Made by a program: the position numbers and the translations under genes
Assembly (NCBI GenBank): GCA_019359375.1
Contig: JAHHHL010000037.1
Span: forward strand, 1-64,000
Length of the DNA: 64,000 nt
Reading direction: 5' to 3'
Source of the DNA: Lyngbya sp. HA4199-MV5
GTDB taxonomy: Bacteria > Cyanobacteriota > Cyanobacteriia > Leptolyngbyales > Leptolyngbyaceae
Shown: positions 19,636 through 27,219 of the stretch, one piece after another
Numbering within the stretch: position 1 is the first letter of the stretch
How the letters are laid out: each line of letters begins with the position of its first letter
The notes under the pieces: model-generated
What the model was told of the DNA's origin: nothing
Databases searched by the model: none
Seen by the model: the letters and a program-made list of their open reading frames with translations, nothing else

Positions 19636-19862
19636 CAAAAACCGTCAAGCGATCGTGTTCAGTACAGCTACTTTCTCAGTGACGTGATTCGGGGACGGTT
19701 TGGTGAGCAGGAATCGCCTGCTAGAAGGCAGGGAGAACGTTAGGAATCAATCTCATCATCCACTAACCAGGCAACGATGCCGATGATGGAGATCATTACA
19801 CTCACTCTCAGGGCTGTGACTTATCATTGACTTGGAGATTGACCATCTCACCCATCTGCATC

Positions 19863-20201
19863 ATGACCTTACAATCCTCCCGTTCTATACTTTACGATCG
19901 CCTGGGCATATCACAGACCCAACTGATGGAATTTTGTGAGCGGTGGCACGTTGCCGAACTGTCGCTCTTCGGTTCTATCCTCCGCGATGATTTTCGCCCT
20001 GATAGTGATGTAGATGTGTTAGTCGCTTATCAACCGACCTCAAAACGAAGCTTGATTGAGAAAATGACGATGCAAGAAGAACTACAAATGCTCCTACATC
20101 GTGAGGTTGATTTAGTCAGCAAAAACGCGATCGAACGAAGTCGAAATTGGATTCGTCGCAGCAACATTTTAAATTCAGCGATGGTGATCTATGTCGCGTG
20201 A
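19863..20201 (+). CDS. mntA: MntA-like nucleotidyltransferase antitoxin
   Basis: 112 aa from ATG 19863. It is a minimal nucleotidyltransferase with the GSx10DxD signature (GSILRDDFRP, then DSDVDVLV) and a following Asp in REVDLVS. In type VII toxin-antitoxin systems MntA transfers AMP to the HepT toxin and so blocks it. The next gene overlaps by 11 bp and is HepT, which supports this role strongly. An upstream TTG at 19827 is less likely. The sequence after the third Asp is of normal length. Confidence 0.88.
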   Translation: MTLQSSRSILYDRLGISQTQLMEFCERWHVAELSLFGSILRDDFRPDSDVDVLVAYQPTSKRSLIEKMTMQEELQMLLHREVDLVSKNAIERSRNWIRRSNILNSAMVIYVA

Positions 20202-20532
20202 TTCAGAAGCTCTGATTGACATCATAGAAGCGATCAAATTGATCTCACAATATGTTGAAGGAGTCAGTCCAGAGAGTTTAGCAGCGAACATCGAAAAACA
20301 AGATGCGATTCTGCGTCGTATTACAATTATTGGTGAAGCAACCAAAAGACTATCGTCAGACTTTAAAGCACAACATCCAACCATACCCTGGAAGCAGATT
20401 GCAGGCATGCGTGATGTCCTTACCCATGATTACGATGAAGTTGATCTCGACGAAGTTTGGACAGTCGTTAATGAAAACTTGGCACAACTGCTGCACTATA
20501 TTGAACCACTTATATCGACTGAAAACAGCTAG
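20191..20532 (+). CDS. hepT: HepT-like toxin (HEPN/DUF86 ribonuclease)
   Basis: 113 aa. HEPN-fold protein with the catalytic R-x4-H signature in MRDVLTHDYDEVD (about 71-83), including the Tyr that MntA modifies in characterised pairs (HDY). A short helical N-terminus (SEALIDIIEAIKLI) and KQIAGMRD are typical of DUF86. It acts in the cytoplasm as an RNase when not AMPylated (known for the family). It overlaps mntA by 11 bp, so the pair is translated together. Confidence 0.9.
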   Translation: MSRDSEALIDIIEAIKLISQYVEGVSPESLAANIEKQDAILRRITIIGEATKRLSSDFKAQHPTIPWKQIAGMRDVLTHDYDEVDLDEVWTVVNENLAQLLHYIEPLISTENS

Positions 20533-20696: not shown

Positions 20697-21791
20697 TTAA
20701 AGTTTGCTGCTGCCCATGAGGTAGAGTAGCGCCATCCGCACAGCGACCCCACTGGTGACTTGCTGCGAGATGAGACTGCACAGGGGATCATCCATTAAAT
20801 CTGAGCTAATTTCAACCCCACGATTAACGGGTCCCGGATGCAGGACTTTCACATCAGGTTTGCAGAGCTTGAGGCGATCGCGCGTAATGCCAAACTGCTG
20901 GTGGTATTCTCGCAAGCTGGGTAGCAAATGGCTGGTCATCCGCTCTTTCTGCAACCGCAACGTCATCACAAAATCGGCATCGCGGAGAGCAGGTTCCAGC
21001 GACCAGTGGAGAAAGAGGTTGTGTGGGGGAAAGGGAGTAGGGAGTAGGAAGTAGGGAGTAGGGAGTGAACTTTGCCCTGAAGACTCTGACTCCTGACTTC
21101 TGACTTCTGACTTCTGACTCCTCTCTCCTCTCACCTCTCTCCTCACAAAGTCTGCAAACAACTGCGGCAACAACGTCGGCGGACCTGCCAGATGCACTTC
21201 GGCTCCGCTGGCGGTGAGGCTCCACAGGTTAGAGCGAGCGACGCGGGAGTGGAGAATGTCGCCGACGATCGCAATCTTTTTGTCTTTCAAAACCTCTAGT
21301 CTGGGATGATCCGGGTCAAGTAGTGTAGTGATGGTGAATAAATCCAGCAACGCCTGAGAAGGATGTTCGTGCAGACCATCACCCGCATTGAGGACACCCA
21401 CTCGGACACCCAGACGATCCATTTCGTGGGCGATCGCGTGTGGCACCCCAGCTTCCCGATGACGAATCACCATCATGTCGGTGCCCATTGCAAGATAGGT
21501 TTTTGCCGTATCGAAAATGGTTTCGCCTTTGCTGAGCGATGACGTTCCTGGCGCAAAATTGAGCGTATCGGCAGACAGTCGCTTGGCGGCTAGCTCAAAG
21601 CTGCTGCGAGTGCGGGTGGATGACTCAAAAAACAGGTTGGCGACCACCTGCCCCTGCAAAGTCGGTACTTTCTTGGTGCGGCGGGATAGCACCTCACGAA
21701 AGCTGTTGGCGGTTTGCAGCACGGTATCGTACTCATCGGGGGTGAAGTCTGCCAGGGATAAAATGTGGTGCCGATTCCAGGTGACGCTCAT
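20697..21791 (-). CDS. pyrB: Aspartate carbamoyltransferase catalytic chain
   Basis: 364 aa from ATG 21791 ([16 protein letters not shown]); a longer frame runs upstream but lacks support. It catalyses carbamoyl phosphate + aspartate to carbamoyl aspartate in pyrimidine synthesis. Signatures: [43 protein letters not shown] and [16 protein letters not shown]. Between LFADFV and [13 protein letters not shown] there are about 45 extra residues ([17 protein letters not shown]...) of low-complexity, encoded by intergenic-type heptamer repeats at about 21028-21145. The frame stays open. The catalytic motifs are intact on both sides, so a functional enzyme with a surface loop is plausible. Confidence 0.93.
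21028..21145. repeat. STRR heptamer repeat inserted inside pyrB
   Basis: Plus-strand reading shows runs of GGGAGTA/GGAAGTA units followed by TGACTTC units and CTCTCTC-rich sequence. The same kinds of repeat occur in gaps elsewhere in the window (43338, 37279, 32322). Here they are in frame and translated as part of pyrB. Confidence 0.85.
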
Positions 21792-22044
21792 GGGGAAAGG
21801 AGAAGAGAAGGATGGCGACAAATCTGCCGCTGAAGCCCGCAACTGGGGGACGTACATGACGATCGAGTGCAAACGCACCCACACTAAGGTACATCCTTTA
21901 GACTTCTCACTGGACGAGTGCAATCAGGTTAAATGCTAATGATGCGGCTTCACAGAAATTTATACAACTTCCGCAAAATGTATCAAAGCGAGAATAGTTA
22001 GGCATACTGGACTAAACCTATTAGTTCCTGACACGTAAGCTGTT

Positions 22045-22452
22045 ATGCCAGACAACACTCTACAGCCAAGAAAAGCCTTGAATAAAGCTTTTCTCAAGGT
22101 TAAGCCTAATAGAGAAAGTATCGAAAAGTTTAAAACGAATCTGATCCAACTACTCGACCAAATTAACGAGTCTGAATCAGAGGAGTTCCACAAAAATCTT
22201 GTTTCTGACTTCTTGAAGAAAACGTATTATAGTCCAAATCATTTTATCAATACTAAAGGTCGTAACGATCTCGTTATCCACAATGGCAAAGACGCTAAAA
22301 GTAGTGTTGGCATCATTCTAGAAGCTAAAAAGCCAATCAACAGAAGCGAGATGCTGAAGGTTGATAATCTCAACACAAAAGCGCTTCAAGAGTTGGTTTA
22401 TATTTTTTGCGAGATCGCATTACGGGGAAGAACCTTGAAATTAAATATTTAG
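22045..22452 (+). CDS. N-terminal (nuclease-like) part of a frameshifted restriction-modification gene
   Basis: 135 aa in this frame; the last ~15 residues after QELVYIF are out of frame with the real protein. GRNDLVI followed by ILEAKKP gives the D...ExK pattern of a PD-(D/E)xK nuclease at about 73-96, as expected at the N-terminus of Type IIG enzymes. The continuing part of the protein lies in the -1 frame starting at 22407. The two frames join without loss at ATTTTTTG (22402-22409). Confidence 0.75.
   Translation: MPDNTLQPRKALNKAFLKVKPNRESIEKFKTNLIQLLDQINESESEEFHKNLVSDFLKKTYYSPNHFINTKGRNDLVIHNGKDAKSSVGIILEAKKPINRSEMLKVDNLNTKALQELVYIFCEIALRGRTLKLNI
22399..22412 (+). other. Frameshift site (T6 run) in the restriction-modification gene
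   Basis: Frame of the upstream part reads TAT ATT TTT TGC; moving back one base gives TTG CGA GAT, which restores LRDRIT and the rest of the enzyme. A run of six T (22403-22408) allows a one-base deletion, a sequencing error, RNA polymerase slippage, or ribosomal -1 slippage on TTT. Confidence 0.75.
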
Positions 22453-25400
22453 TTGCAACCAACATCTATGAATGGTTTATTTTTGACGCGACTGTTTTTG
22501 AGAGGTTTGCCCAAGACAAGGCTTTAGTAAAGCAGTTTAATGATTTTGAAGAAGGAAAATTAAGTGGTAAAAAAACTGACTTCTTCTATAAGCAGATTGC
22601 TGAACCTGCGATCACTAAAATTCAAGACCAAGCTCAACTGATATTTACGCATTTTGATATCCGAAATTACGATGCCATTGCAAGAAACGCTGAAGGGCAA
22701 GACGATTATGAATTAATTGCGCTCTTCAAGCTGCTTTCACCAGAACATTTGTTGAAATTGCCCTTTGCTAACGATAGCAATAGACTGGACAAAAGTTTTT
22801 ATAGTGAGCTGCTATACATCATTGGTTTAAAGGAAACGAAGGTAGGAAACAAAAAACTGATTGAACGTAAAGCTGAGGGCGATCGTAGTGAAGGCTCTAT
22901 GATTGAAAATGCCATCAATCAGCTTGATAGTTTGGACAAAATTTCTCGACTGGAAAAACCTACCCAGTTTGGTAATACTAACCAGGAACGGTTGTTTAAC
23001 GTTGGCTTAGAGCTGACAATTACCTGGATCAATCGAGTGCTCTTTCTTAAATTGTTGGAAGCTCAGTTGATTAAATATCATAAAGGTGATCAGTCGTTTT
23101 CATTTTTAAGCCTCGTAAAGGTACAGAACTACGATGACCTAAATAGACTTTTCTTTAACGTGTTAGCTCGCAAGCAAAGTGAGCGAAATGCAGGTGTAAG
23201 AGAATTTTTTGCCAACGTTCCTTATCTCAATAGCTCATTGTTTGAACCGACGGAAATTGAGCAGTCAACTATTGTGATTAGCAATCTCAGAGATGAAAGT
23301 CTTCCAATCTTTTCATCTAGTGTTTTGAAGGACAGCAATGGCAAAAAGCGAACAGGTAAACTTAATGCTCTAGAATATCTCTTTGAGTTTCTCAATGCTT
23401 ATGACTTTAGCAGTGAAGGATCGGAAGCGATTCAAGAAGAGAATAAGACGCTGATTAATGCTTCTGTACTTGGCTTGATTTTTGAGAAAATTAATGGCTA
23501 TAAAGATGGCTCCTTTTTTACACCCGGTTTCATTACGATGTATATGTGCCGCGAAACAATTCGCAGGGCAGTATTGCAGAAGTTTAATGAAACCAAAGAC
23601 TGGGATTGCCAGAATATTAATCAGTTGTATGAAAGGATTACGGACAAGCAGGAAGCGAACGAGATTATCAATAGTTTAAAGCTTTGTGATCCTGCTGTTG
23701 GATCAGGACACTTTTTGGTTTCAGCACTCAATGAGATCATCTCGATCAAAAGTGAACTGAAGATTTTGCGCTATCGAGAAGGAAGAACATTACGAGATTA
23801 TCATGTTGAAGTTTTTAATGATGAGTTAATTGTCACTGATGATGATGGCAAATTATTTGAGTATAATCCGAAAAACAAAGAAAGCCAGCGTGTACAAGAG
23901 ACACTGTTTCACGAAAAGCAAACAATTATTGAAAGCTGTCTCTTCGGTGTGGACATCAACCCAAACTCAGTCAAAATATGTCGCTTGAGGCTATGGATTG
24001 AGCTTCTGAAGAATGCTTATTACAGAGCTAACAGTAATTGCACTGAACTAGAGACTCTGCCCAATATTGATATCAATATAAAATGTGGCAATTCTCTGAT
24101 TAGTCGTTTTCCGTTGGATGCTGATTTACGGCAGGCTTTAAAGAAAAGCGAATGGAATATTAGTAGCTACCGACAGGCAGTGCAGACATACCGCAATGCT
24201 GAGAATAAAGAGCAAAAGCGGAGCATGGAAAGGCTGATTAATGATATCAAGGGAAATTTACGCACTGAGATTGGTAATAGTGACCCAAAAGTGAAAAAGC
24301 TGAGAAAACTGGAAGGAGATCTTTATAACCTGCTCAATCAAATGCAGCTTTTTGAAGAGAGTAAGGCTGAACAAAAAGGACGCAAGCAAAAGAAAGAAAA
24401 ATTAGAGAAAGAAATCAATCAGCTTAGGTTTTCAATTGAAGAAATAAAGAGCAGAAAAATTTATGAAAATGCTTTTGAATGGCGGTTTGAGTTTCCTGAA
24501 ATTTTGAATGGGCAAGGCGATTTTGTGGGTTTTGATATAATTATTGGGAATCCCCCGTACTTAAATTTTAAAGTTTACTCGGCAGCAGAAAGGGAAATCT
24601 TTAAAAGAGATTACTCGGAAATATTCGATGGCAAGGCAGATATCTATTATTTCTTTTTTACTCAAGGATTGAGGATATTAAAACAAAATGGAAATCTTGC
24701 TTACATCTCTTCAAGGTATTGGCTTGAAGCAGAGTTCGCAGAAAAACTCAGAATAAGCTTGTCAAATAGTTATGTAACTCACGAAATCATTGATTTTAAA
24801 AATGTGACGATCTTTGACGGAATTGGTATAAAAACTTCAATTGCGATTTTCCAAAATGCTAAACCTATACAAGGAATAATATTTAATTACAAATATACTG
24901 ATAGCAAGAAAATTGAATTAGTTAAGATTGAGGATTTTGTATCAACTGTAGTCTGTGCTGATGATATTAGAGGAAAAACAAAATGGATTTTGAGACAAGA
25001 AAGTGAGTTAAAAATACATAGAAAAATTGAAGCTGATGCTATGCCATTAGAAATGATTGCTCACTGCAAGCAAGGAATTGTGACAGGGCTTGATAAAGCC
25101 TTTATCACAACAACTAACGACTTCAAAGATATTCCTGAAAGGTATGTTAAACCCTGGATAAAAGTTGGAGATATTTTTAGATACTCGATTAATCCTGTAG
25201 AGGAAAGGCAAGTAATTTATACGAATGAAGTCAAAAGTTTATCAGAATATCCAGAGCTAGAAAAGCGATTGATACCATATAAAAGAAAGTTGTCAGAACG
25301 CAGAGAAGCAAAATCACAAAAAATTAGATGGTTTGATTTACAATGGGCGCGTGATCCTGCACTGTTCGACAGCCAAAAATTGGTTTGTCGCTTCAAGGCA

Positions 25401-25814
25401 TCACAAAAAACTTTTTCATTCGACGATAATAAATCTTACTCAAGTGCAGATACAACGATTGTAGTATTGAGAGAGGAGTTGGTAGAAGAATACGATTTGA
25501 AATTCATACTTGCACTGGTTAACTCAAAGCTTTTAGACTTTTACTTTAAAGGTTATGGAAAACTAATGGATTATCGCTTTGAGTATTACCCAGGTCCTGT
25601 TGGAAAACTTATGATTAAAAAAGCTCACAATCAACAAGACTTCGTAAAAATTGTTGATCAAATTATACATATAAAAAAATCTGCCCCTAACGCGGATACA
25701 ACCACCTTAGAAACAGAAATAGATCAGATGGTTTATCAGCTCTATGGGTTAACGGCAGAGGAGATTAAACTTGTGGAAGGAGAGTCCCAAGTGGTTGAAA
25801 TGCTTGGTGAATGA
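22407..25814 (+). CDS. Eco57I-like (Type IIG) DNA methyltransferase/specificity part, frameshifted from its N-terminus
   Basis: 1135 aa in this frame (TTG start is formal; the reading probably continues from 22045). Adenine methyltransferase motifs are present: DPAVGSGHFL (motif I, ~428-437), LFGVDINPNSVKICRLRLW (~512-530) and the catalytic GNPPY (~714-718). A lysine-rich coiled coil (about 630-690) separates motif I from NPPY. The C-terminal ~300 residues (from ~870: HCKQGIVTGLDKAF) should be the target recognition domain. Joined with the 22045 part the enzyme would be about 1250 aa, normal for a single-chain IIG enzyme. The region is AT-rich and almost free of HIP1 sites, unlike its neighbours, suggesting transfer. 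Confidence 0.85.
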   Translation: MRDRITGKNLEIKYLVATNIYEWFIFDATVFERFAQDKALVKQFNDFEEGKLSGKKTDFFYKQIAEPAITKIQDQAQLIFTHFDIRNYDAIARNAEGQDDYELIALFKLLSPEHLLKLPFANDSNRLDKSFYSELLYIIGLKETKVGNKKLIERKAEGDRSEGSMIENAINQLDSLDKISRLEKPTQFGNTNQERLFNVGLELTITWINRVLFLKLLEAQLIKYHKGDQSFSFLSLVKVQNYDDLNRLFFNVLARKQSERNAGVREFFANVPYLNSSLFEPTEIEQSTIVISNLRDESLPIFSSSVLKDSNGKKRTGKLNALEYLFEFLNAYDFSSEGSEAIQEENKTLINASVLGLIFEKINGYKDGSFFTPGFITMYMCRETIRRAVLQKFNETKDWDCQNINQLYERITDKQEANEIINSLKLCDPAVGSGHFLVSALNEIISIKSELKILRYREGRTLRDYHVEVFNDELIVTDDDGKLFEYNPKNKESQRVQETLFHEKQTIIESCLFGVDINPNSVKICRLRLWIELLKNAYYRANSNCTELETLPNIDINIKCGNSLISRFPLDADLRQALKKSEWNISSYRQAVQTYRNAENKEQKRSMERLINDIKGNLRTEIGNSDPKVKKLRKLEGDLYNLLNQMQLFEESKAEQKGRKQKKEKLEKEINQLRFSIEEIKSRKIYENAFEWRFEFPEILNGQGDFVGFDIIIGNPPYLNFKVYSAAEREIFKRDYSEIFDGKADIYYFFFTQGLRILKQNGNLAYISSRYWLEAEFAEKLRISLSNSYVTHEIIDFKNVTIFDGIGIKTSIAIFQNAKPIQGIIFNYKYTDSKKIELVKIEDFVSTVVCADDIRGKTKWILRQESELKIHRKIEADAMPLEMIAHCKQGIVTGLDKAFITTTNDFKDIPERYVKPWIKVGDIFRYSINPVEERQVIYTNEVKSLSEYPELEKRLIPYKRKLSERREAKSQKIRWFDLQWARDPALFDSQKLVCRFKASQKTFSFDDNKSYSSADTTIVVLREELVEEYDLKFILALVNSKLLDFYFKGYGKLMDYRFEYYPGPVGKLMIKKAHNQQDFVKIVDQIIHIKKSAPNADTTTLETEIDQMVYQLYGLTAEEIKLVEGESQVVEMLGE

Positions 25815-25869: not shown

Positions 25870-27219
25870 TTACGGTGAGAAAATCTTTAGAGCAACTGTA
25901 ATCAGGGTTAAGAACATAATAAACCCGATCGTGTCCAGCATAGTAGTCACCAGTGGTCCACTCACCAGGGCGGGATCGAGCTTGAGTCGCTTCAGACCCA
26001 TTGGCAACAGGGTGCCCAGCGTGACGGCAACGATCGTATTTGCTGCCATCACAAAGCCAGCCACTAGCGCGACCCACCGTTCATTTGGTGGTGTCCAGAT
26101 GAGTGCCAGCAGAATCATCGTGGCTCCCAGCGCGATCGCGGCTCCCACACCTGCCAGCAGCTCCTTCCGCAAAATTTTGAGCGTGTCGTAGGGGGTGACT
26201 TCGCCGACACCGAGCGATCGGATCGTTACCGTCAATGCCTGAATGCCAACTGTGCCACCCGTATTGGAGAACAAGGGCATGATGACCGCTAAGACAGGCA
26301 CCATCGCAATGGTCTTTTGAAAGGGGGCGATCGCGCTGGAGGCTCCAATATAGAGCGCCATGATACCCAACAGCCAGGGGAGCCGATTCCGTAGCTTGGT
26401 CAACGGGTGGGAAAGGGAGGACTCATCCCCATTGCCAACCCCGGCTAACCGCTGGATGTCTTCGGTGGCTTCTTCTTCTAAGATGTCGATCACGTCATCG
26501 ATCGTGATAATGCCAACCAGGCGGTCTTCTCGATCGACCACAGGCAGCGCCAGCAAGTCATAGCGCTTCATTAATTGCGCCACTTCTTCTTGAAGCGTGT
26601 CGGTGTAAACCTTGAGCACACGATCGCTGGCAATATCGCCAATCAGCGCTTCTGGCAGCGAAAACACCAGTTGTCGTAGCGATACCACCTGCACCAGCTT
26701 ACGGTTGTCGTCGGTGACATAGGCATAGTAAACCGTTTCCTTATCCTGGTCATTCAGGCGGATTTTGCTCAGTGCTTGTGAAACCGTTAAACCCTGCCGC
26801 AGCCGCACATACTCAGTGGTCATCACCCGCCCAGCCGTTCCGTCTGGGTAGCCCAGAATGGTCGCTGTGGCTTGCCGTTCGCCTGGACTAAGCTGTTGAA
26901 TTAAACGTCTGACGACCCCCGCAGGCAATTCGTCAAACAGTTCGGCGCGATCGTCTGGGCGCATCCCTTCGACAAGCTGACACACCTGGGCATCGTGCAG
27001 GTAGCCAATGAGTTCCTCGCGCACCTCCTGATCCAGATATTCAAAGACCTCAGTTGCCTGACCTTTGTTCAGCAACCGGAAGGTAATCGCACGCCGTTCG
27101 GGTAGCAAATCTTCAATGTAATCCCCGATATCTACTGGCTGAAGCTGGTTTAGCTCTAGCTTTAGACGATTTAAGTCGGCAATATCCGACAGTGAAGTAC
27201 GACCTTCCTGGGTTAGCAT
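25870..27219 (-). CDS. mgtE: Magnesium transporter MgtE
   Basis: 449 aa, full length. The MgtE N domain (about 15-125; ELIGYLHDAQ, LLNKGQATEVFEYL) is followed by two CBS domains (about 130-260; TTEYVRLRQGLTVSQAL, LPVVDREDRLVGIITIDDV), a linking helix, and five membrane helices (about 285-445). The pore signatures are seen: SNTGGTVGIQAL and LDPALVSGPLVTTMLDTIGF, the latter with the conserved Asp that binds Mg2+ at the pore. It imports Mg2+ and closes when the cytoplasmic domains bind Mg2+. It converges with the restriction-modification gene (55 bp). Confidence 0.95.
   Translation of the reverse strand: MLTQEGRTSLSDIADLNRLKLELNQLQPVDIGDYIEDLLPERRAITFRLLNKGQATEVFEYLDQEVREELIGYLHDAQVCQLVEGMRPDDRAELFDELPAGVVRRLIQQLSPGERQATATILGYPDGTAGRVMTTEYVRLRQGLTVSQALSKIRLNDQDKETVYYAYVTDDNRKLVQVVSLRQLVFSLPEALIGDIASDRVLKVYTDTLQEEVAQLMKRYDLLALPVVDREDRLVGIITIDDVIDILEEEATEDIQRLAGVGNGDESSLSHPLTKLRNRLPWLLGIMALYIGASSAIAPFQKTIAMVPVLAVIMPLFSNTGGTVGIQALTVTIRSLGVGEVTPYDTLKILRKELLAGVGAAIALGATMILLALIWTPPNERWVALVAGFVMAANTIVAVTLGTLLPMGLKRLKLDPALVSGPLVTTMLDTIGFIMFLTLITVALKIFSP

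Follow-up and report, generated by a model that had tools for sequence, protein, structure and literature searches.

Domain architecture of the split gene

Type IIG restriction-modification enzymes of PADLOC family PDLC03612 are built of the domains DUF7149, DUF7814, Eco57I and TaqI_C in that order; the same domain order and motifs are found at a locus of Lyngbya sp. HA4199-MV5 when two overlapping frames, ORF1 and ORF2, are combined, but here, unlike in those enzymes, the frame is broken inside the nuclease domain. A further described relative is provided by PDB entries 7LNI and 8CXZ, which we take to be CamA of Clostridioides difficile and which carry the database label "site-specific DNA-methyltransferase (adenine-specific)"; both are matched at 181 bits by residues 708-1113 of ORF2 (24528-25745), the methylase and specificity part, to which CamA is similar. 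The CamA chain of 577-578 residues is too short to include the N-terminal part, and the likeness is drawn from sequence, not from the recognition site. The name "DUF7149" was not found in the literature searched. The features of the gene, which lies in the 64,000-nucleotide stretch analysed here (the window), are collected in Table 1 together with the lesions of damaged relatives.

Table 1. Position and description of the features at the locus and of lesions in related copies
Feature	Position	Strand	Description or basis
Low-GC segment	21934..25897	.	Without similarity at the same place in the nearest congener, G006
ORF1	22045..22452	+	135 aa; gene start and first half of the DUF7149 nuclease domain
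Putative PD-(D/E)XK site in ORF1	22264..22329	+	N-D75 at 22264-22269 and E93-A-K95 at 22321-22329; D, E and K invariant in 17 relatives
Likeliest frame-break site	22397..22400	+	Conserved leucine codon, one base short; profile scoring and comparison with relatives
T6 run	22403..22408	+	Same length and codon phase in 9/57 relatives, in frame there
ORF2	22407..25814	+	1135 aa from TTG; remaining nuclease domain, DUF7814, Eco57I-type adenine methylase, TaqI_C-like specificity domain
SAM-binding motif I region, DPAVGSGHF	23688..23714	+	9/9 residues invariant in 14 relatives (alignment A2)
NPPY catalytic motif, adenine methylase	24549..24560	+	Invariant in 14 relatives (alignment A2)
G084 lesion			Stop codon in nuclease
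G362 second copy lesion			Insertion of ~1.4 kb in nuclease
G213 and G307 second copy lesion			In-frame nuclease deletion; G307 copy with a further deletion
G358 lesion			Insertion in methylase part
G201			Several lesions
G396 lesion			C-terminal part lost

ORF1 and ORF2 cover consecutive positions of the same families, namely 2-120 and 119-239 of the Pfam profile DUF7149 and 8-115 and 120-1245 of PDLC03612 (type IIG), respectively; they are thus two frames of one type IIG restriction-methyltransferase gene. The sequence-only reading had described such a gene, split in two frames and with both domains otherwise intact; coordinates, strand, frames and the consecutive halves of the two profiles agree with this description, and neither frame holds any other stop codon. 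The frames overlap by 85 nt (22368-22452), so that many joins between them are possible, and the last ~17 residues of ORF1 form its out-of-frame tail. ORF2 contains an adenine methylase with both the SAM motif and NPPY (PF07669, E 2.3e-35), followed by a C-terminal target recognition domain (PF12950 TaqI_C, E 2.3e-9). Nuclease and methylase lie in one polypeptide in 31 of 43 related copies, whereas in the window the broken frame separates them.

In alignment A2 the conservation of the family is strong as far as NPPY and falls off sharply beyond it, in the specificity domain, a pattern that would fit an exchange of this domain. An assignment to BREX PglX was rejected, ORF2 scoring 70.5, 66.2 and 52.8 bits against NCBIfam PglX cut-offs of 500, 400 and 900, respectively.

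The predicted nuclease domain and the position of the break

The N-terminal domain of a relative (L031, a Cyanobacteria MAG record) was modelled with 17 sequences, at a mean pLDDT of 88.4. Comparison of the model with PDB chains placed BpuSI first (3S1S; Z 9.2, 143 residues, 3.6 Å), with HsdR of EcoR124I, DrdV (7LO5; Z 8.4) and BsaXI (8W2P; Z 7.5) close behind and mitoribosomal chains reaching up to 7.7; the predicted nuclease fold resembles BpuSI, DrdV and BsaXI at a sequence identity of only 12-18%, and Foldseek returned nothing below 0.001 (best E 0.025). The model gives good, though not certain, grounds for considering the N-terminal domain a PD-(D/E)XK nuclease with a fold nearest to that of BpuSI, and DUF7149 is probably the nuclease domain of the family. 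The junction is held by helix 114-129, after the E-x-K strand 90-96, so ORF1 would retain the putative catalytic residues and lack the remainder of the fold; the break cuts the predicted nuclease domain soon after its catalytic strand.

To place the break within the overlap, the 27 possible -1 joins between the frames, none of which contains a stop, were scored against a profile of 17 relatives. The best join, at 22398, reached 403.9 bits and the joins adjoining it 400.8 bits (22401) and 400.1 bits (22395), while the two joins within T6 scored 396.3 bits, 7.6 bits below the best. A join in T6 would change L-Y to Y-I, and the conserved L-Y-F-L-R is still read by the window's ORF2 across T6.

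Relatives were compared over a set of 57 distinct junctions, each matched by alignment through the residues flanking the break. All 57 are in frame; the flanking V and L-R enclose three codons, the first two of which read L-Y in 51 junctions and F-Y in the other 6. Nine relatives share with the window a T6 in the Y-F-L codons, and in six of them the frame is open along the entire gene; one in-frame T6 relative, L084, is identical with the intact copy L002. Four T stand in the V-L codons of 34 relatives where the window has three; the G009 copy, which is the closest in the conserved part, reads GTT CTA there, with a C within the T run. This alignment-based set replaced an earlier motif-based one (n=41), which catches only motif-fitting junctions and in which L-Y was counted in 41/41 and T6 in 5/41; the odds of the readings discussed below were unchanged by the replacement. 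The gene holds ten A/T runs of six or more bases (four T6, four A6 and two A7), and this T6 is thus nothing special among them.

Profile scoring and codon comparison place the break outside T6, in the leucine codon at 22397-22400. The exact join at T6 that had been proposed from the sequence is contradicted by both the profile and the in-frame relatives with an identical run, and its companion statement, that no residues were lost, holds in the sense that the gene is only one base short.

Origin of the gene and its insertion site

The GC content of the gene is 36.3% against 51.2% and 53.9% in its flanks, and nowhere else in the window does a stretch this long have so low a value. In G006, similarity to the window ends at 21933 and resumes at 25898, and the matches to pyrB and mgtE are 417 bp apart. 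A close copy is found in none of the six congeners, all draft genomes; within the order, copies occur in 4 of 42 genomes, this one included, and in no other genome of the genus. Along the full length of ORF2 the closest copy is L002 of the same-family genome G029 (67%), while the G009 copy is closer over the first 718 residues (79%). The 36% GC, the lack of a close copy in the congeners and the absence of the gene at the same place in G006 mark it as an import, and on these compositional and comparative grounds it is regarded as horizontally acquired. Viral contigs gave no match to any of six short patterns, the best plasmid match reached only 44.4% identity, none of 21 phage records covered 80% of ORF2, and the edges of the insert showed no telling repeats.

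Between mgtE and pyrB, where the window has the restriction gene, G006 carries an ORF for a type II chorismate mutase (L069, 12518-13072), which is present in one of seven genomes of the genus (G006 only; the window genome is without it). The spot between pyrB and mgtE seems to be a landing place of different accessory genes. Within pyrB itself (20697-21923, - strand), the aspartate carbamoyltransferase has a linker of 7-base tandem repeats at 21032-21144; five congeners have other sequences at this site, with both sides conserved. A pair of genes at 19827-20532, one MNT-like nucleotidyltransferase and one HepT-like, is probably a toxin-antitoxin system, and the first also matches PADLOC PDC-S09.

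Fate of the gene and lesions in the family

Quite probably the locus is a recent pseudogene, derived from a type IIG restriction-modification system that was acquired horizontally, and has probably lost all activity. The gene would have been acquired horizontally, standing alone between pyrB and mgtE, and one base would have been lost in its conserved leucine codon. Ribosomes starting at 22045 would then stop at 22452 and release a 135-residue stub, in which the putative catalytic residues of the nuclease would be present and most of the next helix and all later strands missing. The only early start codon of ORF2 is the TTG at 22407, with no other until TTG codons at residues 115-118 and no ATG before residue 165; a clear Shine-Dalgarno sequence upstream of TTG 22407 was not seen by eye, and promoter-like sequences are not in excess in the region (7 found against 10.9 expected). 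Since ORF2 has no ATG before residue 165 and its opening TTG has no clear ribosome-binding site, its methylase would probably be unmade or poorly made. We infer that neither nuclease nor methylase is made in quantity. The two activities would have gone together, and the cell could tolerate this with a one-chain enzyme, since unmethylated DNA would then face no remaining nuclease.

For a neutral gene of 1135 codons, the estimated divergence at which a stop is present with 95% probability is ~1.6-2.2% substitutions per site, a bound that falls to 0.6% if frame-shifting indels are added at one tenth of the substitution rate. As ORF2 is free of stops, either the break is recent or selection still acts on ORF2, and the earlier suggestion of a recent event rather than old decay is thus borne out only if ORF2 is no longer selected. 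Against G009, ORF2 has a dN of 0.124 and a dS of 1.64, while its dS is saturated against both G336 and G029; three ORF1 comparisons, one plainly misaligned, were dropped. The low dN/dS against G009 would speak of long past selection, not of the time since the break. The pseudogene reading is founded on one assembly of the strain.

A sequencing or assembly error in a gene that is really intact is unlikely, even though there is one assembly, in 95 contigs, and an error would also leave the gene otherwise perfect. The short run at the break consists of three T only and is no typical error site, and none of the G006 ORFs with a counterpart in the compared assembly parts is split (0/25 and 0/31, 13,931 codons in total). 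These were mechanical ORFs, some of them possibly spurious, and by the rule of three 0/56 over 13,931 codons still allows up to ~0.27 errors per such gene, so that the exclusion is weak. Slippage at T6, whether in replication, transcription or translation, that restores the frame in some cells or transcripts is very improbable. The length of T6 is the same in relatives that are in frame there, the missing base lies one codon earlier, and the codons ATT TTT TGC of the ORF1 frame do not form the usual X XXY YYZ frameshift heptamer, although a -1 slip on T6 would give a full-length protein with Y-I replacing L-Y and leaky read-through is compatible with the DNA sequence. According to PMC1088944, some bacteria may also slip on shorter runs; the same paper reports that in a large share of genomes selection against A/T runs is evident at nine bases, and the latter counts against this reading. 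The best join lies at a run of three T rather than at a long repeat tract; three T are no contingency tract, and phase variation, which the sequence-only reading had entertained along with slippage, is thus without support.

There is also the reading that ORF2 of the split gene is translated from a start codon inside the gene and works as an orphan (M+ R-) methyltransferase. This is quite unlikely given the start codons and the lack of promoter-like excess described above, yet the ORF2 domains are complete and other copies offer parallels: an in-frame deletion has removed the nuclease from G213 and from the second copy of G307, leaving frames of 985 and 946 codons, respectively, and the second copy of G362 has a long frame after the insertion in its nuclease. 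A slim chance attaches to the broader proposal that the family repeatedly follows a route in which breakage or deletion of the nuclease comes first and the methylase survives as an orphan, the window being an early step; its methylase would then still be produced, either through an internal start codon or through leaky frameshifting at T6. Were the methylase functional, the strain would represent a nuclease-dead mutant of natural origin, which is not the reading favoured by the evidence.

The family occurs widely in the phylum, and often in damaged form. Copies were found at E 1e-60 in 37 of the 386 genomes sampled, this genome included, and 43 copies from the other genomes of the sample were inspected, with four distant copies left out. 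Next to the 31 that are open from nuclease through methylase, seven are clearly broken, three are broken near contig ends and two are cut by contig ends; the further deletion in the second copy of G307 removes ~90 residues. The copies L115 (G213) and L114 (G307), from one genus, have a common in-frame deletion of the nuclease domain and retain a long methylase frame. Of eight clear lesions that are not near contig ends, five (the window, G084, the second copy of G362, G213 and the second copy of G307) hit the nuclease part, which makes up ~19% of the length (binomial P 0.009, tested after looking). The count becomes 4/7 when the shared deletion is counted once (P 0.03) and 4/10 when the three doubtful cases near contig ends are added (P 0.11), and a bias of lesions toward the nuclease is a hint only. 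Two more broken copies, G056 (in the nuclease) and G042 (after it), lie outside the sample and are not part of this count.

Returning to the pseudogene reading, the locus has the look of commonplace gene decay of recent date rather than of an on-off switch. The case shows how easily a break may be ascribed to a conspicuous homopolymer a few bases from its true position, and that the site is settled by comparing codons in relatives. The phase-variable type IIG genes of Campylobacter are based on long homopolymer tracts; the split gene of the window resembles them in being a type IIG gene with a frame break, but differs from them in that its break lies at a short run of three bases.
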